The notes beneath the pieces were generated by a model. That model was not told where the DNA came from, ran no database searches, and worked only from the letters and a program-made list of their open reading frames with translations. From Agrococcus baldri (GTDB lineage: Bacteria > Actinomycetota > Actinomycetes > Actinomycetales > Microbacteriaceae), in assembly GCA_007988785.1 (NCBI GenBank), contig BJUU01000004.1, positions 124,001 to 188,000 of the forward strand: DNA of 64,000 bases, read 5' to 3'. The position numbers were made by a program, and so were the translations under genes. Positions 1 to 61,100 of this stretch are shown here, one piece after another; positions within the stretch are counted from its first letter, which is position 1, and each line of letters starts with the position of its first letter.

Positions 1-206
1 CGCCAGTGCGCGATGCCGACGATCTCGCCGTCGAGCTCGGCGACGAGCCCCCGGCTCTCGTGCGCCTCGTCGAGCAGCCAGCCCCAGACGCGCGCGACCA
101 CTGCTTCATCGCGCGCGTTCTTGTAGAAGGTGCGGTAGCCGTGGAAGAGCTCCGCCCACCGCTCCCGGTCATCCGCCGCTACTGCCCGCACGCTGATCTC
201 GCTCAT
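1..206 (-). CDS. GNAT-family N-acetyltransferase, N-terminal part (cut by window edge)
   Basis: Sixty-eight codons are visible, starting at ATG 206 and running off the left end of the window. The translation begins MSEISVRAVAADDRERWAEL and contains HGYRTFYK and GEIVGIAHWR, typical of the first helices and the beta2-beta4 strands of GNAT acetyltransferases, which move an acetyl group from acetyl-CoA to an amine. The acetyl-CoA loop is beyond the edge, so substrate cannot be guessed. A TAGCGT hexamer on the minus strand (218-213) lies 6 nt before the ATG with no Shine-Dalgarno, which suggests a leaderless mRNA and supports this start. Confidence 0.75.
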   Translation of the reverse strand, partial: MSEISVRAVAADDRERWAELFHGYRTFYKNARDEAVVARVWGWLLDEAHESRGLVAELDGEIVGIAHW

Positions 207-240
207 GCGCTCACGCTACGCCCGCCCGGCTCCCGCTCGG

Positions 241-320
241 GGACCCTGTGCACCCACGGGGACCCGGTGCAGCAGGTCCCTGTTGGTGGAACGGGTCCCT
301 GCCTGTGGTGGAAAGGGTTC
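241..320. repeat. degenerate copy of the GGTGCACC-core palindromic repeat
   Basis: This intergenic stretch repeats the pieces of the clearer element at 1404-1459: GGACC, then ACCCGGTGCAGCAGGTCCC (a decayed GGTGCACC core), then two GTGGAA(A/C)GGGT half arms. The symmetry is imperfect, so this looks like an older copy. It lies between the GNAT start and the 3' end of the next leftward gene. Confidence 0.55.
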
Positions 321-349
321 CTGCGGAGCGAGCTTCGGTGCCGCGGCCC

Positions 350-1294
350 TCAGGCGGCCGGCTGCGTCTCGGCGAAGGGACCACGCACCCGCGGGATGCC
401 GTAGGCGGTCAGGATGCGCTCGAGTCGCTCGGGGTGCAGCACGTCGTCCCACACCCAGTGCGCAGGGTCGCCGGTGAAGAGCAGTTCGTCGTCGCGGGCC
501 TTCTCCTGCATCAGCGCATCGGTGCCGCGCCTCCCCTGCTGCGCCGCGAGCTCGCCGTACTTCTGCTTGCCGTCGAACTCGCCGTAGACGGGCCGCCGCC
601 CGGGCCGGTTGAAGCGCATGTCGACGCGCCACCGGTTACCGGTCGGGCCCGTGACCCGCACTTGCAGCTCGGGTGCCGCGAAGCCGAGCTCGAAGACGCG
701 CACCCGGCTCCAGGATTCCCCTACCGACTCTGCGCGCGCATCCGCGAACTCGATCGCCCAGGCCCCCTGGGCGCGGCCGCGCGGGCTCTGGCGCGCCAGG
801 GCCTCGAACAGCTCCTCCTTGGTGACCAGTCGCCGGTGCAGGGCGTTGTCGATCGCTGCCACGGCGTCGACGGCCCGGCTGCGCCGCGCGAACTCCGCGA
901 GCGCATACGCGACCGAGCAGACCTGCAGCCCTCCGACCGAGACGACGTCTGTCTTGTCGAGGATGGCCGGGGCATGCACGACGCCGGCCTTCTTCTTCGC
1001 CGTCGACCTGCTCCCCGTCGTGTACACGGCCGGCGGCTCGAGACCGTAGGGGATGTCGTACTCCGCGAGCGCCGACTCGCGCGCGAAGATCGGCCGGGTG
1101 CGGGCGACGTGCACTGCCCGGATCCGCAGGCGGTAGGCAGCCCGACGGTCGGCGTCGTCGGCGACCGCGGCGTCGACGTAGATGCCGCGGCGCAGCCGGG
1201 AGAATCGTGCATCCCGCTCCGGCCGCGTGCCCGGCGACGAGGCCACCAGATCGCGCTTCGCCCGCACCGCCGCTCGCACCCCATCGTCATCCAT
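350..1294 (-). CDS. AbiEi-antitoxin-like / DUF559-like protein, 314 aa
   Basis: Predicted cytosolic protein of unknown role. The C-terminal third has the pattern EFDGKQKYG followed by ALMQEKARDDEL and a WVWDD segment, the layout of the restriction-endonuclease-like (DUF559/Vsr-like) domain found at the end of many actinobacterial proteins annotated as type IV AbiEi-family antitoxins. The N-terminal part (SRLRRGIYV, then ARTRPIFARESAL) resembles the winged-helix part of those proteins. No AbiEii-type nucleotidyltransferase partner is adjacent, so an antitoxin role is not supported by context. The start at ATG 1294 has GACGAT 7 nt upstream. Family assignment is from memory of the motif layout. 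Confidence 0.65.
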   Translation of the reverse strand: MDDDGVRAAVRAKRDLVASSPGTRPERDARFSRLRRGIYVDAAVADDADRRAAYRLRIRAVHVARTRPIFARESALAEYDIPYGLEPPAVYTTGSRSTAKKKAGVVHAPAILDKTDVVSVGGLQVCSVAYALAEFARRSRAVDAVAAIDNALHRRLVTKEELFEALARQSPRGRAQGAWAIEFADARAESVGESWSRVRVFELGFAAPELQVRVTGPTGNRWRVDMRFNRPGRRPVYGEFDGKQKYGELAAQQGRRGTDALMQEKARDDELLFTGDPAHWVWDDVLHPERLERILTAYGIPRVRGPFAETQPAA

Positions 1295-1403
1295 GGCGTG
1301 GATCGTCGCGGATGAGCGCTCGGGTCGTGGACTCGCGGTACGGCCCCTGTGGAGAAGCGAGCGCGGTTCGGGATCACTCTCCGTGCCGACCCGCCCCCGA
1401 GGA

Positions 1404-1459
1404 GACCCCTTTCACCCGCGGGGACCTGGTGCACCGGGTCCCCGCGGGTGAAAGGGGTC
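1404..1459. repeat. perfect 23-bp inverted repeat with GGTGCACC core
   Basis: The arms 1404-1426 (GACCCCTTTCACCCG...) and 1437-1459 (...CGGGTGAAAGGGGTC) are exact reverse complements, separated by 10 nt containing GGTGCACC. It lies between the divergent genes at 350-1294 and 1570-5691. A full-length transcript would form a very stable hairpin, but there is no T-run after it, so it is not a standard terminator. Related copies are at 241-320 and, inside cydDC, at 59987-60046. Confidence 0.85.
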
Positions 1460-1569
1460 CCGTTCCGCGAGTGGGCGGATGCGCGGGCGGGCGAGCGGGG
1501 CGGACGCGCGACAGGCGAGCGGTTGCGCGGGGCGCGCAGGCGCGCAGCCCCGTGCGGGAGAATGGCGGG

Positions 1570-4500
1570 ATGCGCATCGAGTACCCGGCCGAGCTTCCGG
1601 TCAGCGAGGCGCGCGACGAGATCACGGCGCTGATCCGCGACCACCAGGTGGTGATCGTCGCGGGCGCCACCGGCTCGGGCAAGACCACCCAGCTGCCGAA
1701 GATGCTGCTCGAGCTCGGCCGCACGAGCATCGGCCACACGCAGCCGCGCAGGCTCGCCGCCCGCACGATCGCCGAGCGCCTCGCCGAAGAGCTGGGCGTC
1801 GAGATGGGCAGCGAGGTCGGCTACAAGGTGCGCTTCACCGACCAGGTGAGCCAGGCGACCCGCATCAAGGTGATGACCGACGGCATCCTGCTCGCCGAGA
1901 TGCATCGCGACCGCGACCTCAAGCAGTACGACGCGATCATCATCGACGAGGCGCACGAGCGCAGCCTCACGATCGACTTCCTCATCGGCTACCTCAAGCG
2001 CCTGCTCCCCCGCCGCCCCGACCTGAAGGTCGTCGTCACGAGCGCGACCATCGACCCGGAGTCGTTCAGCCGCCACTTCGACGACGCCCCCATCATCGAG
2101 GTCTCCGGGCGCACGTTCCCGGTCGACATCCGCTACCGCCCGCTCGTCGCCGAGGCGCAGCCCGGCACGAAGGGGGCGGATGCGTCGGAGGACGACGACG
2201 AGGACGCCCACGTCGATCTCGACCCCGTCGACGGCATCGCGGCGGCGCTGCAGGAGATCGAGCGCGACGACGCGGGCGACGTGCTGGTGTTCCTGCCGAG
2301 CGAGGCCGACATCCGCGACGCGCAGGATCAGCTGCAGGGCCGCCTCGGCCAGCACACCGAGATCCTGCCGCTCTACGGCCGCCTCAGCGCCGCCGACCAG
2401 CACCGGGTCTTCGAGCGCAGCAGCCGCGCCGGCGTGCGGCGTCGGGTCGTGCTCGCCACCAATGTGGCGGAGACGAGCCTGACCGTGCCGGGCATCCGTC
2501 ACGTGATCGACACGGGCACGGCCCGCATCTCGCGCTACTCGGCGCGCTCGAAGGTGCAGCGGCTGCCGATCGAGGCGATCAGCCAGGCGAGCGCCAACCA
2601 GCGCTCGGGGCGCGCGGGGCGCGTGGCGCCGGGCATCGCGATCAGGCTCTACTCGCAAGGAGACTTCGAGAAGCGGCCGGCGTTCACCGACCCCGAGATC
2701 CTGCGCACGAACCTCGCGGCGGTCATCCTGCAGGCGGCGAGCCTGGGGCTGGGGCCGCTCGCCGAGTTCCCGTTCCTGCAGCCGCCGGCCGCGCGCGACA
2801 TCAAGGACGGCAACGACCTGCTGCTCGAGCTCGGCGCCATCAGCCCGGCCGGCAAGATCACGAAGATCGGGCGCGAGCTGGCGCGGCTGCCCGTCGATCC
2901 GAGGTTCGGGCGGATGGCCGTGGCCGGCCGGGACGCGGGCGTCGCCCACGAGGTCATCGCGATCGTCGCGGGGCTGACCATCCAGGATCCGCGGGAGCGG
3001 CCGCTCGAGCGCCGCGAGGAGGCCGACCGGCTGCACGCGCGCTTCGCCGACCCGACGAGCGACTTCATCACGCTGCTGGCGCTGTGGCGGTACCTGCAGG
3101 AGCAGCAGGCGGCGCTGTCGGGGAACGCGTTCCGGCGGCTGTGCAAGCGGGAGCACCTGAACTTCCTGCGGGTGCGGGAGTGGCAGGACGTGGTGCGGCA
3201 GCTGACGCGCGCCTTGGGCCTGAGGCGGGAGGTCCTTTCGGACCTCTCGCGGCCCCATGGCGCCGACGCCCGTCCCGGGCGTCGGGAGACCGTCGATGCT
3301 GGCGAGCAGCCCGCGAGCCGGCAGGTCGAGGAGCGCGCGGCCGAAGGCCGCTCGCGTCACGAGACCGCAGGCGCCGACCGGTCTCGTGACGCGTCGCCGC
3401 TGCGCGACGGCGCTCCTCGACCTACGGAAGGTGCCGCCGACCGGTCTCGTGACGCGTCGGCGCGAAGCGCCGGCGCTCCTCGACCTACGGAGGGGGACGG
3501 CGCTCCTCGACCTGCGATCTCCGTCGACGCGACCGCCGTGCACAAGGCGCTGCTGAGCGGGCTGCTCGGCCGCATCGGCGTGCGCGACGAGACCGGCAAG
3601 GCGCAGCAGGCGCGACCCGGCGAGAGCAAGCGCCAGCACGAGCGCCGCACCCGCCAGCGCGCCGAGTTCCTGGGGGCGCGCGGCGCGCGATTCCAGCTGT
3701 TCCCGGGCTCCGCCCTGGCCAAGCAGCCCCCGCAGGCGGTCATGGCCGCCGAGCTCGTCGAGACGAGCCGGCTCTTCGCCCGCACCGCCGCATCCATCGA
3801 CCTCGCCTGGGCAGAGCCGCTCGCCGGTGACCTCGTCAAGCGCCAGGTGAGCGAGCCCCACTGGGAGCGCAAGCAGGGGGCCGTCGTCGCCTACGAGAAG
3901 GTGACGCTGTTCGGGGTGCCGATCGTCGAGCGGCGGCGCGTGCAGTACGCCCGCATCGATGCCGAGCACGCGCGCGAGCTATTCATCCGGCACGCGCTCG
4001 TCGAGGGCGAGTGGGACAGCCCGCAGGAGTTCGACAGGAAGAACCGTGAGCTGCGGCGCGAGATCGAGCGGCTCGAGGAGCGCCAGCGGCGCCGCGACCT
4101 GCTGGTCGGCGACGAGGCGGTGTTCGACTTCTTCGACGCGCGCATCCCCGCCGACGTCGCCTCGACGCGCGGCTTCGAGGGCTGGTGGCGCACGGCCCGC
4201 GAGGCGACGCCCGAGCTGCTGACCATGACCCGCGAGGATCTCACGGGCGAGGATGCGCGGGTCGACCAGGAGCAGTTCCCCACCAGGTGGGTGCAGGGCG
4301 AGCAGCGGCTGCGGCTCAGCTACCGCTTCGAGCCGGGCAGCGCCGACGACGGCCTCACGGTGCACGTGCCGCTCGCCGTGCTGCCGAGGCTCAGCGAGGC
4401 GGGCTTCGACTGGCTCGTGCCGGGCATGCGCGAAGAGCTGCTGACGGCGATGATCAAGAGCCTGCCCAAGCACATCCGCAAGCACGTGGTGCCGGCGGCC

Positions 4501-5691: not shown

Positions 5692-5705
5692 CGTCCGCGA
5701 CGGCG

Positions 5706-5784
5706 GCCCGGCAGATGCATGCTCCCGAGGCCACAGAGCTGGATCATCCAGCCATGCACGCTCCGCGGACGAGATCTGCCGGGC
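5706..5784. repeat. nested inverted repeat downstream of hrpA
   Basis: Outer arms GCCCGGCAGAT (5706-5716) and ATCTGCCGGGC (5774-5784) are exact reverse complements, and a perfect inner palindrome CTGGATCATCCAG sits at 5739-5751. The 79-bp element fills most of the gap between hrpA and the next gene. It could be an RNA terminator for hrpA or another intergenic repeat family; there is no T-run. Confidence 0.6.
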
Positions 5785-5811
5785 TCCGCGCGGCAATAGC
5801 CTGGAGGCACC

Positions 5812-6159
5812 ATGGATGACACCCGCTACGGCCCGAACTTCCAGCGCAACGCGCTCGCCCCCGGCATCATCGCCGCGCTCGCGCTGGTCGCGGCGCAGCT
5901 GTGGCTGGCGGGCGCGTGGGATGAGGTGCTGCGCTACGTGATCGCGATCCTGGCGCTCATCGTGGCGTGGTTCGCGATCCAGGCGAGGCACTGGTGGTGG
6001 GTGCCGGTGTTCGGCGCGATCGCGGTGATCTGGAACCCGGTCGTGCCCTTCGAGTGGAGCACGCCGGGGCAGGTCGCGTTCTGGTTCTGGGCGCACCTGG
6101 TGGCCGCGGTCCTGTTCGTCGCCGCCGGCTTCCTCATCAAGACGCGCGCCGAGGAGTAG
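5812..6159 (+). CDS. small integral membrane protein (DUF6804-like), 115 aa
   Basis: Short protein with about four hydrophobic helices (around residues 15-33, 40-56, 61-78 and 88-108). The stretch YVIAILALIVAWFAIQARHW followed by WWVPVFGAIAVIWNPV matches the pattern of DUF6804 membrane proteins common in Microbacteriaceae; I rely on memory for that name. Function is unknown. ATG 5812 has GGAGG a few bases upstream and TAGCCT 9 nt upstream, so it may be weakly leadered. It stands alone between hrpA and a lipoprotein gene. Confidence 0.7.
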   Translation: MDDTRYGPNFQRNALAPGIIAALALVAAQLWLAGAWDEVLRYVIAILALIVAWFAIQARHWWWVPVFGAIAVIWNPVVPFEWSTPGQVAFWFWAHLVAAVLFVAAGFLIKTRAEE

Positions 6160-6229
6160 CGGCGGGAAGCCGCGAGGCAGCCGCCCGGCGGTCAGCCGAC
6201 TCGGATGCGGGCCAGATAGCCTCCCGCGC

Positions 6230-6865
6230 ATGTCCCCCGCCACGCGCATCCGCCCCGCACTCCTCATCGCCGCGAGCGCCGCGGCCCTCGTGCTCGTCGG
6301 CTGCGCGCCGCCGGCGACCGAGCCGAGCGAGACGCCGGTGCAGGAGTCGCACGCGCCGCCCGCCGAGACGCAGGCCGAGACCTCCCCGCCCGAGACCACG
6401 GAGAGCGACGCGGCCGAGGAGACGCCCGCCCCCGATGCGCAGGGCGGCACCCTCGAGCAGTGCCCGGACGCGCTCGCCGAGGCCTGGCTGCACCTGGGCA
6501 CGGGCGACGACGTGACGGCGGCCGAGTACGGCCCGCGCGCGATCGAGGCGGGCCTGCAGCCGGGCGGCGACGCCGAGGTCGTGTGCGCCGTCGGGCTCGA
6601 CGACCCCGAGGGCGCCTTCTCGTTCGCGCTCACGGTGCTGCGGGGCGAGGAGGTGCCGGCCGCCGTCGAGTCGGCCGCGCTGGCGGCGGGGCTGACGGCG
6701 CAGGAGGGCGGCCGCAGCGGCGTCATCGCCGAGTACGCGAACGACGACGGCACCGAGCTGCACACGCTGTACGAGCCGGGCGATCAGGTGGTGTCGATGG
6801 GCGGCATCGACGAGCCCGAGGGCGCCTACCTGCTCGAGGGCACGCGGGCCACCGCAGAGCCCTAG
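6230..6865 (+). CDS. secreted lipoprotein, unknown function, 211 aa
   Basis: The N-terminus has a basic start, a hydrophobic core and a lipobox (LVLVGC, Cys about residue 25), so it should be lipid-anchored on the outer face of the membrane. Residues about 27-75 are a Pro/Thr/Glu-rich linker, followed by a roughly 130-residue globular part (LEQCPDALAEAWL ... VVCAVGLDD ... TLYEPGDQVVSM). The two cysteines in the folded part could pair. I do not recognise the family. TAGCCT lies 7 nt before ATG 6230, a leaderless arrangement. The MFS gene follows after 9 nt. Confidence 0.7.
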   Translation: MSPATRIRPALLIAASAAALVLVGCAPPATEPSETPVQESHAPPAETQAETSPPETTESDAAEETPAPDAQGGTLEQCPDALAEAWLHLGTGDDVTAAEYGPRAIEAGLQPGGDAEVVCAVGLDDPEGAFSFALTVLRGEEVPAAVESAALAAGLTAQEGGRSGVIAEYANDDGTELHTLYEPGDQVVSMGGIDEPEGAYLLEGTRATAEP

Positions 6866-6868
6866 GAT
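6863..6868 (+). promoter_or_regulatory. -10 element overlapping a stop codon
   Basis: TAGGAT starts with the TAG stop of the lipoprotein gene and ends 6 nt before the GTG start of the MFS gene. If used, the MFS mRNA would be leaderless and independent of the upstream gene although the two look like an operon. Confidence 0.45.
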
Positions 6869-8077: not shown

Positions 8078-8128
8078 GTCGCGCCCCGCCACCGCGCCGT
8101 GCCGGATGCGGCGCGTAGGGTGGGCCGC

Positions 8129-8689
8129 GTGAGTGCACTCCGCGAGCGCCTCCGCGCGCTGCCCACCTTCCCCGAGACCATGCCGAGCCTCGACGCCGAG
8201 GCCGTGCCGACGCATCCGCTCGCGCTCTTCACCGATTGGCTCGACGACGCGATCGGCAGCGGCGAGCGGCAGCCGAGCGCCTTCGCGCTCAGCACGATCG
8301 GCGACGACGGAGCGCCCGCGAGCCGCACGCTGATCGTCAAGGACGTCGACGAGCGCGGCATCCAGTTCTCGTCGAACCGCGGCTCGCGCAAGGCGGGCGA
8401 GCTCGAGCGCAACCCGGTGGCGACGGCGCTGTTCTTCTGGCGTCCGCTCGGCCGCCAGGTCGAGGTCTCGGGCTTCGTCACCGAGCTGGGGGCGGATGCG
8501 TCTGCCGCAGACTGGCGGGAACGCCCCAGCTACGCCGGCGAGCCCAACCCCGACTGGGTGCTGTGGGCGCTGGAGCCGACGCGGTTCGTCTTCCTGCAGG
8601 CGACGCTCGACCGCAAGCACGTGCGGGTCGAGTACCTGCGCGACGGCGACGGCTGGAACCACCGGCAGCCGACGACGCCCGCCGGCTGA
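8129..8689 (+). CDS. pyridoxamine 5'-phosphate oxidase family protein (PdxH-like)
   Basis: FMN-binding split-barrel protein of 186 aa. PSAFALSTIGDDGAPASRTLIVKDVDERGIQFSSN (in segments) is the FMN-binding strand pair of PdxH, and the N-terminal domain has the DPLALFTDWLDDAI-like helix. The C-terminal segment (DRKHVRVEYLRDGDGWNHRQ) resembles the PdxH tail, but the canonical RLSP motif is not obvious, so it may act on another pyridoxine-like or flavin substrate. The frame is open 10 codons upstream, but GTG 8129 has TAGGGT exactly 7 nt before it and was chosen. Its TGA overlaps the next ATG by one base. Confidence 0.8.
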   Translation: MSALRERLRALPTFPETMPSLDAEAVPTHPLALFTDWLDDAIGSGERQPSAFALSTIGDDGAPASRTLIVKDVDERGIQFSSNRGSRKAGELERNPVATALFFWRPLGRQVEVSGFVTELGADASAADWRERPSYAGEPNPDWVLWALEPTRFVFLQATLDRKHVRVEYLRDGDGWNHRQPTTPAG

Positions 8690-15392: not shown

Positions 15393-15407
15393 GTTACAGT
15401 GTGACAC
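15393..15407. promoter_or_regulatory. operator/promoter in a 20-bp divergent gap
   Basis: The whole gap between two divergent start codons is 20 bp and holds GTTACA-G-TGTGAC (one mismatch) overlapping the near-palindrome GTGTGACAC. TACAGT (15395-15400) can serve as -10 for the TetR gene. The dyad is the probable TetR binding site; binding there would block both promoters. Confidence 0.6.
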
Positions 15408-17584: not shown

Positions 17585-17641
17585 GGCGGGGCGAGCGCCG
17601 CAGGGCAAGCGCCGCCGGGGGCGCCCTGACACAATCGACGC

Positions 17642-19467: not shown

Positions 19468-19498
19468 TTGACTCCGACGCGACGTCGGAGTGTGCAGT
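19468..19498 (+). promoter_or_regulatory. MerR-type promoter with 19-bp spacer and central dyad
   Basis: TTGACT (-35, 19468-19473) and TGCAGT (-10, 19493-19498) are separated by exactly 19 bp, too long for normal open-complex formation. The spacer and flank hold the perfect dyad ACTCCGAC-GCGAC-GTCGGAGT (19471-19491). This is the classic target of MerR activators, which twist the DNA to realign the hexamers. The ATG at 19505 is 6 nt after the -10, so the transcript starts at or near the start codon. Confidence 0.85.
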
Positions 19499-21470: not shown

Positions 21471-21552
21471 GCGCGCCGGGTAGCGCCGCTGACGCCCAAG
21501 TCGCCGAAAAGGTTGGGCTGTGCTTCTGCGACCGTCCGCGCACAGTGGAAGC

Positions 21553-22524: not shown

Positions 22525-22554
22525 TGGGGTACAGAGATGGGGTACATTCTGGAG

Positions 22555-26867: not shown

Positions 26868-27004
26868 GGCGGAGAAGATACCGCACACTCCTTTGGGTTT
26901 CCGCCGCACTCTGCAATATCCTCCGACGTCCCCCAAACGCGGAGGAAATTCGAGTAGGTGGTCACCACAGTTCCTTCTGGCGCACAGGTGGAACAATCAA
27001 CCCC

Positions 27005-37855: not shown

Positions 37856-38081
37856 CAAAGGCGAAACAGATCGGTTGGCGCTCGCTTCGATCAGGACCAT
37901 CCACTCGCGGCGCGCGCGGGGAAAGCTGATCAGTCCCAACAAGAACTTCGGTCCCTTCTAGTGCTTGTGCGTGCTGCGACGAGCTCGACACCCGCACGAG
38001 TTGGTTGCAGAGCCGTGTGAGTGATCGAGGCGAAGCCACATCTAACGGGACGGCGCATGCTCAAGCGGGTACTCTCCGGGT

Positions 38082-38743: not shown

Positions 38744-38749
38744 TACAAT
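38744..38749 (+). promoter_or_regulatory. -10 element TACAAT for a leaderless small ORF
   Basis: TACAAT, a near-consensus -10, ends 7 nt before GTG 38757. No Shine-Dalgarno is present, so the mRNA should start at the small ORF, which then couples to the asparagine-synthase-like gene. Confidence 0.6.
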
Positions 38750-38756
38750 CAGGGCC

Positions 38757-38873
38757 GTGAGCGACACTATTTGCACCCATGTCGATTGGGCCGCCGGGGC
38801 CGCCGACGAACTGCGCTGCAGACTCAACGCTAGCCAGCCGGGCGAGTACGAGCTCGCAACGCGCGGCGCCTGA
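38757..38873 (+). CDS. 38-aa leader or small protein coupled to the asparagine-synthase-like gene
   Basis: A short frame starts at GTG 38757 with MSDTICTHVDWAAGAADELR and has two cysteines (positions 6 and 21). It ends in TGATG, so its stop overlaps the ATG of the next gene by one base. A near-consensus TACAAT lies 7 nt upstream. It could be a real small subunit, or a leader that allows leaderless initiation and then terminates-reinitiates on the long gene. No similarity is recognised. Confidence 0.5.
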   Translation: MSDTICTHVDWAAGAADELRCRLNASQPGEYELATRGA

Positions 38874-46539: not shown

Positions 46540-47190
46540 CTATTGTGTCGCGAGCGCGGCGAGCGCAGCCGCAAGCCGGTCGACGTGCTCGGCCAGCGCA
46601 TCCGCCGACCGCCGGTAGGCGGCGTGCGACCTGCCGTAGGGGTCGTCGATGTCGATGTGCTTCGTCGCGGCGAGCGGCAACAGCCCGCGCGCAGCGGCAG
46701 CTGCCGTGACGACGCGCCGCAGGAAGGCGGCGACGCCGTCGTCGCCGAGCGGCTCGACGCCGCGCGGGGCGTCGTCGGCAGCCAACATCTCGACCACTCG
46801 GGTGAGCTCGATGAGCGTGAATGTGCGGTGATTCGCACGCGGCACGGCGCGCACGGCGGCGCTGCGGTGCTCGTGCGCGAGGGCGATGACGAGGTCGGAT
46901 GCCTCGATCTGGGCGGCCGTGAGGGCGCGAGCACGGTGGGCGGTCGCGTCGTCGATGCCCAGCCGCACGGCCTCGGCGGCGGCCCGCGGCTCCATCGTGT
47001 CGCCGTCGAGCGCCATCGTGCCGGCGCTCGCGACCTGGACCGTCGTCGCGTCGGCGCCGGGGATCGCGAGCGGCAGCCGCACGCGCAGCAGCTGCTCGAC
47101 CTGCGGCGAGCGGCAGATGTTGCCGGTGCAGACCGCGAGGATGCGGAAGACGCTCCCCTGCTCGTGGGGCGACTCGGCGTGCCGCGGCAT
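46540..47190 (-). CDS. low-molecular-weight protein tyrosine phosphatase (Wzb/Ptp-like), 216 aa
   Basis: Cytosolic phosphatase. The P-loop VCTGNICRSP holds the nucleophile C21 and R27 (C-x5-R), and the general acid is in IDIDDPYG. LMW-PTPs of glycan loci dephosphorylate a tyrosine kinase or sugar enzymes; no BY-kinase or Wzz-like protein is in the window. It is larger than the usual 150-180 aa. TAGGTT lies 6 nt before ATG 47190, a leaderless promoter that also serves the fused glycosyltransferase. A catalytically dead relative is at 50913-51467. Confidence 0.9.
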   Translation of the reverse strand: MPRHAESPHEQGSVFRILAVCTGNICRSPQVEQLLRVRLPLAIPGADATTVQVASAGTMALDGDTMEPRAAAEAVRLGIDDATAHRARALTAAQIEASDLVIALAHEHRSAAVRAVPRANHRTFTLIELTRVVEMLAADDAPRGVEPLGDDGVAAFLRRVVTAAAAARGLLPLAATKHIDIDDPYGRSHAAYRRSADALAEHVDRLAAALAALATQ

Positions 47191-47260
47191 GGCTCGAACC
47201 TAGCGCGGGCCATGCCGAACCGCTGGGCGTGGCACAGGAACTCTCGGGAGAATGGTTGCC

Positions 47261-49796: not shown

Positions 49797-49815
49797 GTTG
49801 TAAAAATACAACATG
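49794..49815. promoter_or_regulatory. perfect 22-bp palindrome covering both divergent start codons
   Basis: CATGTTGTA-AAAA-TACAACATG: two exact 9-bp arms around AAAA. Its outer triplets are the two start codons, CAT (49794-49796) for arsR and ATG (49813-49815) for the SRPBCC gene. TATTTT (minus) and TAAAAA (plus) can serve as -10 elements 6 nt before each start. It is the evident ArsR operator. Confidence 0.9.
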
Positions 49816-50289: not shown

Positions 50290-50312
50290 GGGCGAGGGTG
50301 CATGCTGGCGGC

Positions 50313-51467: not shown

Positions 51468-51508
51468 GTACCCCATCGTACGAAGCCGCGACCGCGCGGT
51501 TGACCGGA

Positions 51509-52789: not shown

Positions 52790-52819
52790 GGCCACACGCT
52801 AGACCCGCGCGGTCGAACC

Positions 52820-52849
52820 TTGAGAGGAATTGTGGAACACTGTTATGGT
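52820..52849 (+). promoter_or_regulatory. promoter TTGAGA-18-TATGGT for a leaderless mRNA
   Basis: TTGAGA (52820-52825) and TATGGT (52844-52849) are 18 bp apart, and GTG 52856 starts 6 nt after the -10. Confidence 0.65.
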
Positions 52850-53332: not shown

Positions 53333-54529
53333 ATGAGCCTCGACGTCGCAGCGCTGCGCGCCCACTTCCCCTCGCTCGCCTCCGGCCTGGCGCACTTCGA
53401 CGGGCCCGGCGGCACGCAGACCCCCGCGGTGGTCGGCGAGGCGATCGCCCGCACCATCACCGCGCCGCTGTCGAACCGCGGCACCGTCGCGCCGAGCGAG
53501 CGCAACGCCGAGGATGCCGTCGACGGCTTCCGGCACGCCTTCGCCGAGCTGCTGGGCGCCTCGCCGCGCGGCATCGTCTACGGGCGCAGCGCCACGCAGA
53601 TCGCCTACGACATCTCGCGCGCGCTCGCCAAGACCTGGCGGCCCGGCGACGAGGTGGTCGTGACCCGGCTCGACCACGACTCGAACGTGCGCCCCTGGAT
53701 CCAGGCGGCGGATGCGGTGGGCGCCACCGTGCGCTGGCTGCCCTTGGACGCCGGCACGGCAGAGCTCGACCTGCGCGGCCTGGACGACATCGTGAACGAG
53801 CGCACCCGCCTGGTGGCGGTGACCGCCGCATCCAACCTGCTGGGCACCAAGCCGCCCGTCGCCCGCATCGCGGCGCGGGCGCACGAGGTGGGCGCGCTCG
53901 TCTATGTCGACGGCGTGCACTACACGGCGCACGCGGCGGTCGACACCGCGGCGCTCGGCGCCGACTTCTTCGTCTGCTCGCCCTACAAGCTCTACGGGCC
54001 GCACTGCGCGGCGCTCGCCGCCGACCCGGCGCTGCTCGAGAGCCTGCGGCCCGACAAGCTGCTGCCCTCGACCGACGCGGTGCCGGAGCGCTTCGAGCTC
54101 GGCACGCTGCCGTACGAGATCATGGCCGGCGCGACCGCCGCGGTCGACTTCATCGCCAGCCTCGGCACGGGCGGCTCGCGCTGCGAGCGCCTCGTGAGCG
54201 CCAACGAGGCGATCGACCGACACGAGCTGCGGCTGCGCGGCCGCATCGAGCACGGCCTCGCCGACTTCGGCGAGCGGGTGGCGCTGCACTCCATCGCCGC
54301 CGAGCGCACCTCGACGCTGTTCCTCACCTTCGCCGACCGCGACCCCTACGAGGCCTGCCGCTTCCTCGCCGAGCGCGACGTGGTCGCGCCCGCCGGCACC
54401 TTCTACGCGCACGAGCCCTTCGCGGCGCTCGGGCTCGACGTCGAGGCGGGCGTGCGCGTCGGCCTCGCCCCCTACAACGACGACGCCGAGGTCGACCGGC
54501 TGCTGACGGGCCTGGCCGACTGCCTCTGA
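53333..54529 (+). CDS. cysteine desulfurase-like PLP enzyme (class V, SufS-like subfamily), 398 aa
   Basis: Fold-type I PLP enzyme. The PLP lysine is in FFVCSPYKLYGPH; the phosphate-binding and pocket motifs IVYGRSATQIAYDISRAL, VTRLDHDSNVRPW and GALVYVDGVHYTAH are class V aminotransferase features. It belongs to the 'cysteine desulfurase-like' subfamily (TIGR01976 type, by memory), whose substrate is not established; the loop carrying the persulfide cysteine of SufS is not evident. CAGAGT is 6 nt before ATG 53333. It has no Fe-S cluster genes nearby. Confidence 0.82.
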   Translation: MSLDVAALRAHFPSLASGLAHFDGPGGTQTPAVVGEAIARTITAPLSNRGTVAPSERNAEDAVDGFRHAFAELLGASPRGIVYGRSATQIAYDISRALAKTWRPGDEVVVTRLDHDSNVRPWIQAADAVGATVRWLPLDAGTAELDLRGLDDIVNERTRLVAVTAASNLLGTKPPVARIAARAHEVGALVYVDGVHYTAHAAVDTAALGADFFVCSPYKLYGPHCAALAADPALLESLRPDKLLPSTDAVPERFELGTLPYEIMAGATAAVDFIASLGTGGSRCERLVSANEAIDRHELRLRGRIEHGLADFGERVALHSIAAERTSTLFLTFADRDPYEACRFLAERDVVAPAGTFYAHEPFAALGLDVEAGVRVGLAPYNDDAEVDRLLTGLADCL

Positions 54530-54561: not shown

Positions 54562-54580
54562 TGTTCTACGATGTAGCACA
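54562..54580. promoter_or_regulatory. operator/promoter of the Phd-VapC module
   Basis: The dyad TGTTCTAC-GAT-GTAGCACA (one mismatch) overlaps the -10 TACGAT (54567-54572) and the first base of ATG 54580. It is the likely autoregulatory site of the antitoxin. Confidence 0.65.
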
Positions 54581-54843
54581 TGAAGCAGATCGGTATCCGG
54601 GCCCTGAAGCAGAACGCCTCCGCCGTCGCCGCCGAAGCAGCGGCCGGCGAATCGATGCTGATCACCGACCGCGGCCGCCCGGTCGCGCAGATCACTCCAA
54701 TCCCTGAGTCTGCGCTTGAACGACTGCGCCGACAGGGTCGGGTGCGAGACGCGCGCGGCAGCCTGGAGGCGCTGCCTGAGCCGAGCGCCGAGGGTGACCT
54801 GAGCGGAGAGCTCGCCCGGATGCGCGAGGCAGAGCGGTTCTGA
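54580..54843 (+). CDS. antitoxin of the Phd/YefM family, 87 aa
   Basis: N-terminal DNA-binding part MKQIGIRALKQNASAVAAEA followed by SMLITDRGRPVAQITPI, the standard Phd/YefM wording, and an unstructured C-terminal toxin-binding tail (PEPSAEGDLSGELARMREAE in pieces). It neutralises the PIN toxin encoded 4 nt downstream and represses its own promoter through the overlapping dyad. It starts at ATG 54580, 7 nt after the -10, and has no leader. Confidence 0.88.
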   Translation: MKQIGIRALKQNASAVAAEAAAGESMLITDRGRPVAQITPIPESALERLRRQGRVRDARGSLEALPEPSAEGDLSGELARMREAERF

Positions 54844-55239: not shown

Positions 55240-55649
55240 GCGAGGCAACGCGCGCCGATGCCGCCCGCCACGCCATCGTCGCGATGCGGCACGTGCGCGA
55301 CCGCATCGACCGGGAGTTCGACCAGCCGCTGAACGTCGAGGCGCTCGCGGCGGGCGCGCACATGTCGGCGGGGCAGCTGAGCCGCGAGTTCGCCCGCATC
55401 TACGGCGAGCCGCCCTACAGCTACCTGATGACCCGCCGCATCGAGCGGGCGATGACGCTGCTGCGGCGTGGCGACCTGAGCGTCACCGAGGTGTGCTTCG
55501 CCGTCGGCTACGGCTCGCTCGGCACCTTCAGCACCCGCTTCAGCGAGCTCGTCGGCGTCTCCCCCAGCGCCTACCGGCGCGACCACTCCCAGGCCGCCGC
55601 GGGCATCCCCGCGTGCCTCGCGAAGCAGGTGACCCGACCCATCCGCTGA
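55236..55649 (+). CDS. AraC-family regulator with HTH_18 domain, 137 aa
   Basis: Two helix-turn-helix motifs of AraC: VEALAAGAHMSAGQLSREFARIYGEPP and VTEVCFAVGYGSLGTFSTRFSELVGVSPSAYRR. The protein consists of little more than the DNA-binding domain. The GTG start overlaps the stop of vapC (GTGA). A VOC gene lies 66 nt downstream; AraC-VOC pairs of this type are common in actinobacteria and presumably the AraC protein controls the dioxygenase/glyoxalase-like gene. Confidence 0.85.
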   Translation: MSEATRADAARHAIVAMRHVRDRIDREFDQPLNVEALAAGAHMSAGQLSREFARIYGEPPYSYLMTRRIERAMTLLRRGDLSVTEVCFAVGYGSLGTFSTRFSELVGVSPSAYRRDHSQAAAGIPACLAKQVTRPIR

Positions 55650-55715
55650 GGCGCGCATCCGTCTCCGTCAGGATCCGAGAAGCGCCGGCGGCCGCCGCGC
55701 CCTAGCGTTGCGGTC

Positions 55716-56129
55716 ATGGACATCAGCATTCACTACGCGTTCCTCCCCCACACCGACGGCGAGGCGGCGCTGGGCTTCTACCGCGACACGCTCGGCTTCG
55801 AGGTGCGGCAGGACGTCGGCTATCGGGACATGCGCTGGATCACCGTCGCGCCCGCCGGCTCGCCCACCGCGATCGTGCTGCACCCGCCGGCCGTCGACCC
55901 GGGGGTGACGGATGCGGAGCGCGCGGTCGTGCTCGACCTCATGGCGAAGGGCGTCTACACCGCGCTCAGCCTCGCGACCGACGACCTCGACGGGCTGTTC
56001 GACCGCGTGCAGGCGGCGGGCGCGGATGTCGTGCAGGAGCCCACCGACCAGGACTACGGCGTGCGCGACTGCGCCTTCCGCGACCCGGCCGGCAACCTCA
56101 TCCGCATCAACCAGCGCGCCGCGGCCTGA
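55716..56129 (+). CDS. VOC (glyoxalase/bleomycin resistance-like) protein, 137 aa
   Basis: Small vicinal-oxygen-chelate protein with the betaalphabetabetabeta repeat: IHYAFLPHTDGEAALGFYRDTLGFEV in the first half, DDLDGLFDRVQAAGADVVQEPTDQDYGVRDCAFRDPAGNLIRINQ in the second, with the closing DPAGN-(L/Y) motif. Function may be binding, lyase or dioxygenase. TAGCGT is 7 nt before ATG 55716. Its 3' end is duplicated in tandem (56082-56185) and again after the next module (56872-56932). Confidence 0.85.
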   Translation: MDISIHYAFLPHTDGEAALGFYRDTLGFEVRQDVGYRDMRWITVAPAGSPTAIVLHPPAVDPGVTDAERAVVLDLMAKGVYTALSLATDDLDGLFDRVQAAGADVVQEPTDQDYGVRDCAFRDPAGNLIRINQRAAA

Positions 56130-56185
56130 CCCGGCCGGCAACCTCATCCGCATCAACCAGCGCGCCGCGGCCTGACCCGGCCGGC
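56082..56185. repeat. 46-bp tandem duplication of the VOC gene 3' end
   Basis: The unit GACCCGGCCGGCAACCTCAT... (46 bp, 56082-56127 and 56128-56173) is present twice plus a 12-bp start of a third copy (56174-56185). The first copy encodes the end of the VOC protein and the second follows its stop. The copies are identical, so the duplication is recent. Confidence 0.92.
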
Positions 56186-56261
56186 GAGGCACACTCGTCG
56201 CTGGACTACGAGGTGTGGACAACGCAGAACGGGCGTATTACCGTTGTCATACGCTTCGGCC

Positions 56262-56564
56262 GTGGCCCGAGTCGTCTGGACTTCAGAAGCAATCGCGCAC
56301 ATGCGCGAACGCCACGGAGTGACTCAAGAGGAGGCCGACGATGCTCTCGCTGATCCGGATGTCTTGTGTCTCTCACCGGATCCGAGCAGTCGCACCGGTA
56401 GCTCCGATCGATACATCGGCCGGAGTCGCGTTCGCGATGAGGTGCTCGTGGTGATCGTGGTGCGACATGGCAGCGGAAGCTTCGGCGCGAGTGCGTGGCC
56501 CGCGAATCGGGCGCATCGCGAGATGTACGAGGGAGGGACTGTCAGTGAGCAAGCGGATTCCTGA
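56262..56564 (+). CDS. BrnT/RelE-like toxin candidate, 100 aa
   Basis: The protein reads VVWTSEAIAHMRERHGVTQEEA, then LADPDVLCLSPDPSSRTGSS and VLVVIVVRHGSGSFGASAWPAN, the pattern of a family of BrnT-like small basic proteins with the RHGVTxEEV and A-(W/N)-x-A-N segments. BrnT toxins are ribonucleases that precede their antitoxin gene, as here. A TACGCT hexamer lies 6 nt before GTG 56262, so this start is favoured over TTG 56244. It overlaps the next gene by 20 bp. Confidence 0.55.
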   Translation: MARVVWTSEAIAHMRERHGVTQEEADDALADPDVLCLSPDPSSRTGSSDRYIGRSRVRDEVLVVIVVRHGSGSFGASAWPANRAHREMYEGGTVSEQADS

Positions 56565-56871
56565 AGCAGCGCGGGATGCGGTGCGCGCCGAGATCGAGGC
56601 CGACACGGTCGACTACCGCGATACGTTGCCGGAGGGTGTGTGGACGAGGCCCAATACCGACCGGCCTCAGATGCTGTCGCTCCGCGTGCCGGGAGAGACG
56701 CTCGAGTCGCTGCAAGCGCTCGCGTCGTCCGACGGAGTGCCGGTCTCAGCCCTCGTCCGCGGGTTCATTCTCGATGGCCTCGCAAGCAGGGGCAACGATG
56801 ATCTGCGACAGGCGGTGGAGCGTCTCGAACGCGACCTTGCGCTCGTGAAGGCGCAGGCGTTGAACAGATAG
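56545..56871 (+). CDS. BrnA/CopG-like antitoxin candidate, 108 aa
   Basis: A helical protein with LSLRVPGETLESLQALAS followed by DGVPVSALVRGFILDGLAS, a ribbon-helix-helix-like pattern common in antitoxins, and a charged C-terminal helix (ERLERDLALVKAQ). GTG 56545 has a GAGGGAGGGA Shine-Dalgarno 8 nt upstream, unlike most genes here, because it lies inside the toxin gene. The toxin-then-antitoxin order and 20-bp overlap fit a BrnTA-like operon. Confidence 0.55.
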   Translation: MSKRIPEAARDAVRAEIEADTVDYRDTLPEGVWTRPNTDRPQMLSLRVPGETLESLQALASSDGVPVSALVRGFILDGLASRGNDDLRQAVERLERDLALVKAQALNR

Positions 56872-56932
56872 CGCGTTCCGCGACCCGGCCGGCAACCTCA
56901 TCCGCATCAGCCAGCGCGACGCGGCCTGATCC
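56872..56932. repeat. diverged third copy of the VOC gene 3' end
   Basis: The stretch starting just after the antitoxin TAG matches 56072-56132 with about five mismatches. It also forms the last codons and stop of the leftward ATP-grasp gene. Together with 56082-56185 it flanks the BrnTA-like module as direct repeats. Confidence 0.88.
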
Positions 56933-58028
56933 GCCGGGCGAGGCGGGCGAGTCGCTTGCCTGCCGGGCTGCGGCGGAAGCGCCGCCAGCGACTGAGGCTC
57001 GCCGTCTCACGCGCCAGCATCGCGTCGACGATCGCGCCGGCCACGTCGACCGGCTCGCCGTAGCCGGGCACGTGGTGGATCGACAGGTTGGCGCCGGTGT
57101 TCGCCTCGAGCACGACCGCGTCGGCCGCCGAGTCGAGCGAGGGCAGCAAGAGATCGATGCCCGCCACGCCCATGCCGGGGATGCTGGCGGCCGCGCGCTC
57201 GGCGATGTGCAGCGCATCCGGGTGCACACGAGCCGTGACGTTCACGTGCTCGCCGCCCTGGGAGAGGTTGGCGGCGCCGTTCATGATGACGATCTCGCCG
57301 TCGCCCGGCACCGACTCGAAGCTGTGGCCAAGTCGGGCCAGCCAGGCCTCGTCGGCCAGGATCGGCAGCCGCGCCAGGTAGGCGTGCCGGCGCCGCAGCT
57401 CGCCCTTTGCCGCGACGAGCGCCTCGACGCTGCTGCGGCCGTCGCCAACGACGAAGGCGGGGATGCGGCTGGCGGCGGCGACCGCGCGGCCCTCCACCAC
57501 CAGCACCCGCACGTCGACGCCAGAGGCCTGCTCCTCCACGAGCACGCCGGCGCTCTCCTTCGACGCCGTGGCCGCGCGCCAGGCGCGCGCGAACCCGTCC
57601 TCGGTCGTGACGCCGACAGTGACCGCCTCGCCGCCCCTGCCCGCATCCGGTTTCAGCACCACCGGGCCCTCTGCGGCGCGCAGCCAGGCGAGCGCGCGCT
57701 CGTACTCGGCCCGCCCGAAGCGCTGCCCGCGCGGCACCGGCACGCCGTGCTGCTGGAAGAGCAGCTTCGAGATGTGCTTGGAGTTCGCCGCCGGCACCGC
57801 GGTGTCGCTCGTGAGCGAGGTGACCATGTTCTTGATGGCGCCGACCGCGCCGTCGGGGCCGAGGAAGCAGTAGTGGTCGCGGCCCACCTGCAGGATGCGC
57901 AGGCCGCGCCGCTCTGCCGCCTCGACGACGTAGGCGGCGTGCCGGCCGGGATCGTCTGTCTCGTTCAGCGGCGTGCCGCGCGCGACGTGCTCACGGATGG
58001 ACCGCTCCACCGGTTGCAACGGAGCCAT
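56907..58028 (-). CDS. ATP-grasp domain protein (cyanophycin synthetase/glutathione synthetase-like), 373 aa
   Basis: Carboxylate-amine ligase fold. The ATP-grasp lysines and loop are seen in GPVVLKPDAGRGGEAVTVGV, with the metal-binding DLLL and LEANTGANLSIHH (Glu/Asn) motif near the end. It resembles the second half of cyanophycin synthetase or GshF, but lacks an amino-acid-binding partner domain, so the product is unknown. TACGAT (58041-58036) lies 7 nt before ATG 58028; ATG 58046 is upstream of that promoter. The last codons pass through the VOC repeat copy at 56872-56932. Confidence 0.8.
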   Translation of the reverse strand: MAPLQPVERSIREHVARGTPLNETDDPGRHAAYVVEAAERRGLRILQVGRDHYCFLGPDGAVGAIKNMVTSLTSDTAVPAANSKHISKLLFQQHGVPVPRGQRFGRAEYERALAWLRAAEGPVVLKPDAGRGGEAVTVGVTTEDGFARAWRAATASKESAGVLVEEQASGVDVRVLVVEGRAVAAASRIPAFVVGDGRSSVEALVAAKGELRRRHAYLARLPILADEAWLARLGHSFESVPGDGEIVIMNGAANLSQGGEHVNVTARVHPDALHIAERAAASIPGMGVAGIDLLLPSLDSAADAVVLEANTGANLSIHHVPGYGEPVDVAGAIVDAMLARETASLSRWRRFRRSPAGKRLARLARRIRPRRAG

Positions 58029-58179
58029 GCCCGGCATCGTAGCCAAGCGGGATGTCCTGCCGGCGGGGTGCGCGGACGGTCCGGCCGCTCCCCGCCGACA
58101 GAGAATGACATCACCGGCTTCGCATCACACCGTCACCCGCTCATGGTCGCTGCATCGCATCGGGTGAGACCATGGATCT

Positions 58180-61100
58180 GTGCCGGCATCCCAGTCCCCG
58201 ACCGTCGATCCGTGGGTGCTGGAGGCCGAGCGCACCGCATCCGCCCCCGGCTTCCGTCGCCCCTCGCTCGGGCCGGTGCCGAAGGCGCGCGTCTACCTGC
58301 TGGGCCTGCTCGCCGCCCTGCGGGCCGCCGGGCTCGTGCTGGTCGCCGAGGCGGTCGCGCGCGGCATCGCGGCGCTCGCCGAGGGTGACCTGAGCGCCGA
58401 GACCACCCGGCTCATCGTCGTGCTCGGCGTCGCGGGCGCGCTGCTGCGCACCGGCGCAGAGTGGGCGAGCTCGGTGCTCGCGCGCCGCATCGCGACCGAG
58501 GTGAAGCGCTCGATCCGCGGCAGGCTGTGGCGGCGCATCGCGGCGGGCGAGGCTTCGGGCGGCGGCACCGCCGTGCTCGCCGCCGACGGGCTCGACGACC
58601 TCGACGACTACTACGTCTCCTCGCTGCCAGCGACGATCGCCGCCGCGGTCGTGCCGCTGCTGATCGGCATCCGCGTGCTGGGCGCCGACTGGCTGAGCGC
58701 CGTCGTCATCGTGCTGACGGTGCCGCTCATCCCCTTCTTCATGGTGCTCATCGGCAAGCACACGCAGCAGCGCACCGACGAGGCGCTCAGCGCCCTCACC
58801 CGGCTCGCCGACCACCTGGCGGAGCTCGCCCGCGGACTGCCCGTGCTCGTCGGCCTCGGCCGCGTCGACGAGCAGGCGGCCGCCCTCGAGCAGCTGCAGC
58901 GCCGCTACCGCGAGCGCACGCAGGAGACCCTGCGCTGGGCCTTCCTCTCGGCCCTCGCGCTCGAGCTCGTCGCCACCATCTCGGTCGCGATCGTCGCCGT
59001 CTTCCTCGGCCTGCGGCTGCTGAACGGCACCATGACGCTCGAGCCCGCGCTGCTCGCGCTCATCCTGGCGCCCGAGGCCTACAACGCCCTGCGCCAGGTC
59101 GGCACCGCCTTCCACGCCTCGCAGGATGGCCTCGCCGCCCTCGAGCGCTCGCAGGCCATCCTCGACCGCCCCGCCGCCCCCACCCCGCTGGCGCCTTCGC
59201 CGGCCGAGGAGCGCGCGGCCACCCCGCCGGTCGAGGAGCGCGCGGCCACCCCGCCGACCGAGGAGCGCGCGACCACCCCGCCGGTCGAGGAGCGCGCGGG
59301 CGAAGCCCGCACGCGTCACGAGACCATCCCGACCATCCGCATCCACGACCTCACCGTCCGCTACGCCGGCCGCGACACCCCCACCCTCTCCGGCCTCTCC
59401 GCCGAGCTCACCGGCATCGTCTCGATCGCCGGCCCCTCGGGCGCCGGCAAGTCGACGCTGCTCGCGGCCCTCACCGGCACGCTGCCGGCCGACGCCGAGG
59501 TGACCGGCAGCATCCACGGCGTGATGACGGATGCGGTGGCCTGGGCCCCGCAAGCCCCTCGCGCGTTCGCCGGCACGCCCCGCGCCGAGCTGGAGCTCTA
59601 CGGCGCCGAGCCGCTCGCCGCGCTCGACGAGCTGGGGCTCGGTCACGTCGCCGACGCCGCGGTGCCGGAGCTGAGCCCCGGCGAGCAGCGCCGGCTCGCG
59701 GTGGCGCGGGCCCTCGCGCGCGTCGATGCCGGCGCCCGCCTGCTCGTGCTCGACGAGCCCACCGCGCACCTCGATCGCGCCTCCGCCGAGCTCGTGCGCG
59801 CCGCGATGCTGCGCCGCGCCGACCGCGCCGTGATCGTGCTGGCGAGCCACGAGCCCGAGACGAGGGCGCTCGCCACGAAGACCGTCCCAGTCGGCCAGGC
59901 GCCCGCGCTCCCCCCGGCCGCCTCCACCGCGCACCCCCCGGCCGCCTCCACCGCGCACCCCCCGGCCGCCTCCACCGCGCACCCCGGGGACCCCCTCGAC
60001 CGCCCGGGACCCGGTGCACCGGATCTCGGACGGTCGATGGGGTCCCGCGCTCGGGCCGATGCTGCGGCGCCCAGCCCCCTCCGGCTCCGCACCCTCCTGC
60101 GCGGCCAGCGCATCCGCTGGGCCGGGGCCATCGCCATGGCCGCGCTCGCCATCGCCTTCGGCCTCGCGCTCACCGCCGTCTCGGGCTGGCTGATCGTGCG
60201 GGCGAGCATCGAGGAGCACATCATGGTGCTGCTCGTCGCCATCGTGGGCGTGCGCGCGTTCGGCATCTTCCGCTCGGTGGGCCGCTACGCCGAGCGGCTG
60301 CTGACGCATGACGCGGCGTTCCGGGTGGTCGACGCGCTGCGGCTGCGGCTGTGGCGGGCGATCGCCGCGCGCGGCGCCGGCTCGCGGCGGCTGCTCGAGG
60401 GCGGCGCCCCGCTCGACTACCTCGTGACGCTCGCCGACGACCTGCGCGAGCAGCTGCCGCGCGTGCTGCCGCCGATCACGGTCGGCGTGCTGATGATCGC
60501 CGGCGCCGTCGTCACCACCGCGCTCGTCGCACCGCAGCTGACGCTCGTCGTGCTGCTGACGCTCGTGCTCGCCACCGCCCTCGCCGCGGCCCTCGCGATC
60601 TGGTCGGAGCGCGGCGCCGCCGCAGCCCGCGTCGCGGCTCGCTCCGAGATCGTGCGCGGCACCGCGGCGCTCGCCACCGCGGCACCCGACCTGCGCGGCA
60701 ACGGCGTCGCCGCGACCGCGCTGTCGCAGCTCGATGCCGCGAGCGAGCGGCTCGCCGCCGCGGAGCGCCGCGCCGCCTGGGCGGCCGGCCTCGGCACGGC
60801 GGTCGTCACCGCGGCGGCGACGGCACTGGCATTCCTCGTGCCCGTGCTGGCTCCCGAGCTGACGGCCGAAGGCGCATCCGTCATCGCCCTCCTCTCGCTC
60901 GCGCTGCTCGAGCCGCTCGTCGACCTCGTCGCGGGCGTGCACCGGGTGCCGTCGATGCGCGCCCTGCTGGGGCGGCTGGGGCCCGTGCTGCGGCCGGCGC
61001 CGCAGCCCGAGTGGGGCGAGGCCGAGCCGCCCAGCCCCGTCGCCGAGCTCGCGCTGCAGGACGTCACCGTGCGCTACCCGCACACGTCGCAGCCGGCGGT

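Follow-up and report, generated by a model that had tools for sequence, protein, structure and literature searches.

Many operon-leading genes of the actinobacterium Agrococcus baldri carry a hexamer of the form TANNNT that ends 6 or 7 nt before the start codon. We describe this arrangement in a stretch of 64,000 nucleotides, here called the window (positions 124001-188000 of contig BJUU01000004.1), and in a larger sample of the 3.16 Mb genome, which is assembled in 48 contigs. Judged from the DNA sequence, the hexamers are very likely -10 elements of sigma-A promoters, with transcription beginning at the first base of the start codon and the leaderless mRNAs being translated without a Shine-Dalgarno (SD) sequence. 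Sigma-A reads the -10 element and transcription starts approximately 6-7 nt downstream of it; when a promoter-like hexamer lies 6 or 7 nt before a start codon, the mRNA would thus likely begin at that codon. This interpretation, already put forward in the original prediction, fits the fixed gap, the near-exclusion of SD words, the enrichment at leading starts, the constraint on the second and sixth letters of the hexamer and a conservation that is anchored to the start codon. Mechanistically, RNA polymerase carrying sigma-A would recognise chiefly an A at -11 and a T at -7, alongside either a T at -12 or an upstream TGN. Initiation 6-7 nt past the hexamer would fall on the A or G of the ATG or GTG codon, and the ribosome would bind this 5'-terminal start codon directly, as in mycobacteria (Shell 2015).

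The sample consists of the window and 40 further stretches drawn from contigs C1-C15 of the 48 (864 kb in total), to which all counts refer unless stated otherwise; its first stage comprised the window and 20 stretches (464 kb) with 410 called genes. Genes were called by a program of simple design that relies on codon usage and a start-codon prior, penalises TTG and is blind to upstream motifs. Genes at the edges of the stretches were excluded (22 of 410 in the 464-kb stage; also, without a separate count, in the 864-kb sample), and 434 operon-leading and 317 operon-internal, i.e. closely following, starts were obtained. The gap is the number of nt between the end of the hexamer and the start codon. 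At 66 of the 434 leading starts the strict hexamer TANNNT is present at gap 6 (46 starts) or gap 7 (20 starts), compared with a background of 1.8 per gap (mean over gaps 12-44). A count of upstream hexamers by offset had been proposed as a check of the original prediction, and its outcome is this concentration at gaps 6 and 7. In the 464-kb stage, the hexamer occurs at these gaps in 24/118 divergent genes, in 15/107 same-strand genes whose upstream gap is 40 nt or more and in 8/163 closely following genes; among internal in-frame ATG or GTG codons it precedes 5 of 7,462. The 66 hexamer genes start with ATG (42) or GTG (24) and none with TTG, a codon that the caller penalises and that begins just 4 of the 368 other leading genes. 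Among 109 divergent pairs, both genes carry the hexamer in 13, one gene in 39 and neither in 57, and no excess of double occurrence is claimed.

The same spacing emerges independently of gene calls. A motif-only scan for TANNNT-N(k)-RTG, with k from 0 to 20, peaks solely at k=6 (108 sites) and k=7 (64 sites), compared with a mean of 18.3 (range 9-26) for the other 19 values of k. These 172 sites comprise 87 called starts, 22 in-frame upstream alternatives, 16 sites in frame within the first 50 codons, 12 deep, out-of-frame or antisense sites, and 35 unassigned sites, some of which open long frames overlooked by the gene caller. Thus, 125 of the 172 sites coincide with a called start or are close to one in frame, compared with approximately 3.8 per gap elsewhere, which bears out the proposal that the motif predicts start codons. 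Within the genus it is a usable start-codon predictor, and in the window it points to corrected starts at 8129, 22555, 26867, 52789 and 58028.

SD-like words, defined as GGAG, GAGG or AGGA at gap 4-11, are found at only 2 of the 66 hexamer genes and at 148 of the 368 other leading genes (Fisher p = 8e-11). The SD-word set is not entirely clean, as it includes the gene starting at 1570, whose GGAG overlaps its GAGAAT hexamer. A pyrimidine at -1, as expected before a purine start point, is present in 56/66 hexamer genes and in 240/368 others (p = 0.0014). Pfam scans of the 66 hexamer genes and of 66 genes chosen at random from the 148 with SD words revealed no family with more than three members, and therefore no functional bias is claimed.

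The letters of the motif can be ranked by their excess over background at gaps 6 and 7. This amounts to approximately 62 for TANNNT, 15 for CANNNT and 16 for GANNNT (12 of these GANNAT), followed by TGNNNT (6), TTNNNT (5) and AANNNT (1), while TCNNNT and TANNNC/G/A have almost none. The A at position 2 and the T at position 6 carry the most weight, and the first T can be replaced, in agreement with the form YANNNT or GANNAT that had been given for the window. Leading genes of the leaderless type make up about 15% of those sampled by the strict hexamer and about 20% when TGN[CG]ANNNT is included (85/434); the excess of NANNNT at gaps 6 and 7, approximately 95, suggests a share of up to about 22%.

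Where the T at -12 is missing, a TG often occupies the extended -10 position. It accompanies 19 of the 46 hexamers with C or G at -12 and 1 of the 66 strict ones (p = 4e-8), and 23 of 239 C/G forms have it at control gaps. The same relation is seen in closely following genes (6/14 C/G forms, 0/18 strict), in relatives from the genus (12/45 and 0/36, although these sequences are not independent) and in ten other families of the order when pooled (8/17 and 1/33; p = 3e-4). In the motif-only scan of the own genome, TGN[CG]ANNNT is most frequent at gap 6 (38 sites) and gap 7 (29 sites), compared with a mean of 17.5 at the remaining gaps; T[ACT]N[CG]ANNNT does not peak there (22 and 26 sites; mean 25.8). 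For TGN[CG]ANNNT, the motif-only scan of the ten other families does not single out gaps 6 and 7 (19 and 25 sites; gaps 17 and 19 give 25 and 24). A depletion of TGN below background in strict hexamers is not claimed, since the other ten offsets have 0-5 of 66, a range that includes the 1/66. We infer from these counts that TGN makes up for the absence of T at -12.

The hexamer might be a -10 element with scattered start points, so that transcripts carry short leaders of a few nt or form a mixture, an alternative that we regard as improbable. It draws on gap 7 being roughly half as common as gap 6 (20 and 46 starts) and on the four strict matches each at gaps 8 and 9 (background 1.8), which imply that some transcripts may carry one to three extra bases. 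It is countered by the sharp edge of the distribution, with no strict hexamer at gap 5 and 46 at gap 6, which suggests that selection holds the start point on the start codon. A further alternative, that the hexamer is a translation signal, i.e. a ribosome site of non-SD type, would equally explain the fixed distance to the start codon and the rarity of SD words beside it. We consider it very improbable, because the hexamer is 2.7 times more common at operon-leading than at operon-internal starts (66/434 vs 18/317; Fisher p = 3e-5), an enrichment beyond what a translation signal would need, because constraint is strongest at the bases typical of a -10 element, and because TGN stands at the extended -10 position where the T at -12 is missing. 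The idea that in-frame TAG or TAA stop codons just upstream of open reading frames (ORFs) mimic TANNNT at gap 6, to which the in-frame position of a TAG at -12 and its presence in 13 of 24 strict gap-6 hexamers lend some appearance, is ruled out with near certainty, as TACNNT, too, is most frequent at gap 6 (9 vs 0-3 at other gaps), TAGNNT has a peak (11) at gap 7, which is out of frame, the final T is required (TANNNC/G/A being without a peak), and the motif-only gap scan needs no ORF.

Leaderless initiation from these promoters, as favoured above, also agrees with conservation within the genus. Six window genes with a strict hexamer were compared with their genus homologues, which are related and not independent (the count excludes L050, L105 and L106), and 80 of 82 homologues keep TANNNT at gap 6 or 7: 70 at the aligned start and 10 at a displaced start, while one has CACCGT at gap 6 and one has none. 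The hexamer is kept in 14/14 homologues of Lsr2 (TATCTT, 26875-26880, -, gap 7 before ATG 26867; Pfam Lsr2 from residue 1) and in 10/10 of a UGT-like glycosyltransferase according to Pfam (TAGCGT, 52796-52801, -, gap 6 before GTG 52789). Of ten Lsr2 relatives from named genomes, the nine most similar belong to Agrococcus and the tenth, with 44% identity, to Streptacidiphilus. For a gene of the MFS family (Pfam; TAGGAT, 6863-6868, +, gap 6 before GTG 6875), it is present at 23 of 24 genus loci, of which L202 is probably the same gene as L197; in two genus members this gene forms a tandem pair (L202, L203; G016, G003). A PNPOx-like gene (Pfam; TAGGGT, 8116-8121, +, gap 7 before GTG 8129) keeps TANNNT in five of six homologues, the sixth being the one with CACCGT, and a glyoxalase gene (TAGCGT, 55703-55708, +, gap 7 before ATG 55716) keeps it at the aligned start in 14 of 15, with one doubtful case at a shifted codon. 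The low-molecular-weight phosphatase gene (Pfam; TAGGTT, 47197-47202, -, gap 6 before ATG 47190) retains it in 13/13; the aligned ATG is the start in four of these, and in the other nine the start is displaced by 1-6 codons and has a TANNNT of its own at gap 6 or 7 (TACTCT, TACCGT, TAGTGT, TATCCT, TAGCCT, TATCGT and TAGCAT are among these). Nine of the ten displaced starts thus belong to one family, which weakens a reading in terms of relocation, and the tenth (L228, -22 codons) also has an ATG at the aligned place and may be chance.

Variant forms can be equally persistent. The HrpA-type helicase gene (GAGAAT, 1558-1563, +, gap 6 before ATG 1570; DUF3418 in Pfam) has GANNAT at gap 6 or 7 in 14 of the 16 genus homologues counted, with L082 skipped because it lies near the locus end. 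The aldo/keto reductase gene (Pfam) is preceded by the TGN-extended TGACACAAT with C at -12 (17627-17635, +, gap 6 before ATG 17642), and CANNNT or GANNAT at gap 6 or 7 accompanies all seven orthologues, three at the aligned and four at a shifted start. Across 29 start-aligned pairs of strict hexamer genes, columns -13 to -6 have an identity of 0.62-0.83 and column -1 reaches 0.97, compared with 0.14-0.55 at -40 to -24, with isolated high columns at -23 and -16.

Outside the genus, two 20-kb stretches each from ten of eleven order-level genomes of other families (G028 was left out) yielded TANNNT at gaps 6 and 7 in 33 of 220 leading genes, with one to seven per family, and the concentration is visible in eight of the ten. 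The motif-only signal is weaker in these families, with counts of 54 and 42 compared with a mean of 26.2. The two genes compared did not keep the signature: for Lsr2, it was found in none of ten loci of other families, and in five of the ten an SD word accompanies the aligned start or one close by (L071 and L074 align only from residue 25, and L072 and L075 come from one genome). For HrpA, none of ten homologues in other families has the signature at the aligned start, and one carries a TANNNT 32 codons upstream.

Several observations weigh against the leaderless interpretation or limit its reach. In the conservation analysis, the control gap pairs gave 0, 1, 1, 0, 1, 9, 3, 19, 1, 6 and 7 of 98, so that not all are near zero, the highest being 9/98 at gaps 20/21 and 19/98 at gaps 24/25. 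Two of the ten other families are without a distinguishable peak, albeit in thin samples (G021 with 2/25 at gaps 6/7 and one each at gaps 1 and 3; G023 with 1/22). A C at -1 was considered as an initiator signature and rejected as not diagnostic, because it is common in every class (46/66 hexamer, 92/148 SD and 125/220 other genes). A clear -35 element was not found: TTG with an 18-nt spacer occurs in 5/90 cases, a minority signal, and TTG-N21-NANNNT is found 9 times at gap 6, compared with a mean of 2.8. Of the leading genes, 220 of 434 have neither a strict hexamer nor an SD word. Some variant hexamers in the window, such as those at 53333 and 1294, are probably due to chance; both orthologues of the former have SD words instead, and CANNNT is kept in two of six orthologues of the latter.

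A wider proposal can be offered only tentatively, and we rate it as somewhat less probable than its opposite. According to this proposal, the -10 hexamer and the start codon would form one evolutionary unit under selection for leaderlessness, the promoter would relocate to 6-7 nt whenever the N-terminus changes, and the T at -12 and TGN would be interchangeable (TANNNT or TGN[C/G]ANNNT), in Agrococcus as well as in the ten pooled families. It raises the question of whether leaderless translation is selected per se, gene by gene within the genus, and then gives way to SD initiation from one family to another, as suggested by Lsr2.

The signal class itself is already known, and its occurrence in Agrococcus is a sound rediscovery. 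Zheng 2011 (PMC3160421) read a TANNNT core located approximately 12 bp before the start codon as the Pribnow box of TA-led leaderless genes of Actinobacteria. The Agrococcus genes resemble these in the position of the core, in the low information of its middle bases in high-GC genomes and in the switching between SD and TA modes among orthologues. The words Agrococcus, Microbacter*, Clavibacter and Leifsonia are absent from the main text of that paper. In Mycobacterium, TANNNT lies 7-12 bp upstream of 73% of primary transcription start sites (TSSs) without a conserved -35, and about a quarter of the genes with a primary TSS are leaderless (Cortes 2013, PMC3898074). For translation in mycobacteria, a 5'-terminal ATG or GTG is necessary and sufficient (Shell 2015, PMC4633059), and 71 of 97 testable leaderless genes are common to two species (PMC3898074, PMC4633059). 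The mycobacterial 5' ends have been measured, whereas those of Agrococcus are predicted from sequence. TSS mapping in Corynebacterium glutamicum likewise revealed a sigma-A -10 element TAnnnT, a weak -35 and 33% leaderless mRNAs (PMC3890552). In M. tuberculosis, the extended -10 motif TGNNANNNT is present at 15% of -10 matches (PMC5511352), and TGN accompanies 7% of TANNNT promoters in Mycobacterium, compared with 1/66 in Agrococcus (PMC3898074, PMC4633059). Unlike in C. glutamicum and M. tuberculosis, TGN in Agrococcus is concentrated on hexamers without a T at -12, at leaderless spacing. Both extended -10 elements and the mix-and-match use of elements in sigma-70 promoters are already familiar in principle (PMC5511352, PMC5333181), and leaderless promoter patterns have been discussed for gene-start prediction (StartLink, PMC9581028). 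Relative to Zheng 2011, the present analysis adds the motif-only gap scan, the homologues with displaced starts and the relation between -12 and TGN; start-anchored conservation and the latter relation are modest additions. A literature search limited to open-licence papers found no TSS study for Microbacteriaceae, the family of Agrococcus, and 'leaderless' together with Agrococcus was matched there by just a bacteriocin paper. The leaderless rule is extended to a lineage for which the open-licence literature yielded no TSS map.

Within the window, all 17 hexamers quoted in the original prediction are exact in letters, gap, strand and start codon. Its figure of 25 or more operon-leading genes is overstated. 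The 55 window starts examined, some of which were added or moved partly for bearing a hexamer, include 17 with a strict hexamer and 10 with CANNNT or GANNAT; of these 27, seven follow closely behind a same-strand gene and five strict ones were included on account of their hexamer, and seven window starts (six strict, one variant) were shifted from the called position to a hexamer-bearing in-frame codon. It had also been claimed that genes of the low-GC glycan cluster mostly use SD sequences. Leading genes below 67% GC indeed carry the hexamer less often (1/42 vs 65/392; p = 0.011), but SD words are not more common in them (13/42 vs 137/392), and the claim is not supported. The 17 candidate starts in or beside the cluster, where start calls are less reliable, have few clear SD words and many have neither signal.

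The remaining strict hexamers include TAGCGT at 213-218 (-), gap 6 before ATG 206, which is kept as TANNNT at gap 6 in both syntenic orthologues, and TACATT at 22543-22548 (+), gap 6 before the ATG 22555 of an 81-amino-acid ORF, with four of four. TAGCCT at 6217-6222 (+) precedes ATG 6230 by 7 nt; no orthologue of this ORF (6230-6865) was found in the syntenic stretches of the relatives compared, and its stop codon is the TAG of the conserved TAGGAT at 6863-6868. TACGAT at 58036-58041 (-), gap 7 before ATG 58028, belongs to a gene with a weak ATP-grasp match. TACGAT at 51475-51480 (-), gap 7 before GTG 51467, was absent from the earlier list; two of three orthologues, in the comparison for 51476, have TANNNT at the same codon. 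TGCAGT at 19493-19498 (+), gap 6 before the ATG 19505 of an MFS gene, was quoted with correct letters and gap, although it does not have the form YANNNT or GANNAT; it is a weak case (TGNNNT, 9 at gap 6 vs a background of 3.2), kept in the sole orthologue found.

TACTCT at 38070-38075 (+), gap 6 before GTG 38082, leads an ORF of 188 amino acids without a Pfam match and without an orthologue in syntenic stretches. It is followed by TACAAT at 38744-38749 (+), gap 7 before GTG 38757 of a 38-codon ORF (38757-38873, +), whose TGA overlaps the ATG 38873 of a 562-amino-acid ORF (TGATG). The 38757 ORF is a candidate for a small leaderless ORF with coupling to the gene that follows, a type described in mycobacteria (PMC4633059). 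TATTTT at 49803-49808 (-) stands 6 nt before the ATG 49796 of a gene with an ArsR-type helix-turn-helix domain (Pfam). This start and the called divergent start 49813 (+) are 17 bp apart, so that either one promoter would lie inside the other gene or the (+) start is miscalled. TATGGT at 52844-52849 (+), gap 6 before GTG 52856, is back to back with the site of the UGT-like glycosyltransferase, which places two promoters of leaderless type in the 66 bp between the divergent start codons 52789 and 52856.

Two further strict hexamers precede a Phd/YefM antitoxin gene (TACGAT, 54567-54572, +, gap 7 before ATG 54580; ORF 54580-54843, +, with the Pfam match from residue 1) and an ORF of 100 amino acids (TACGCT, 56250-56255, +, gap 6 before GTG 56262; ORF 56262-56564, +), the latter being absent from the earlier list. 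The 56262-56564 ORF and the overlapping ORF downstream are, by eye, a candidate toxin-antitoxin-like pair. In M. tuberculosis, toxin-antitoxin pairs are rich in leaderless mRNAs (PMC3898074).

Among the variant forms, the TGN-extended TGTCACACT (15398-15406, -) lies 7 nt before the ATG 15390 of a FAD-linked oxidase gene, for which no orthologue was found in syntenic stretches. CATGCT at 50301-50306 (+), gap 6 before the ATG 50313 of an FMN reductase gene, is matched by CANNNT at gap 6 in five of five orthologues. CACAAT at 46542-46547 (-), gap 6 before the GTG 46535 of a glycosyltransferase gene, corresponds to GANNAT at gap 6 or 7 of the aligned start in three of four, and GAGAAT at 47248-47253 (+), gap 7 before the start 47261 of a VanZ-like gene, to GANNAT in two of four. 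CACAGT at 21541-21546 (+), gap 6 before the ATG 21553 of a gene encoding a DUF4349 protein, is kept as CANNNT at gap 6 in seven of eight orthologues. Upstream of this start, a block AAAGGTTGGGCTGTGCTTC (approximately 21508-21526, +) is near-identical in seven relatives, and the intervening DNA up to CACNNT at gap 6 has diverged; the block possibly represents a -35 element or regulator site of another sigma factor.

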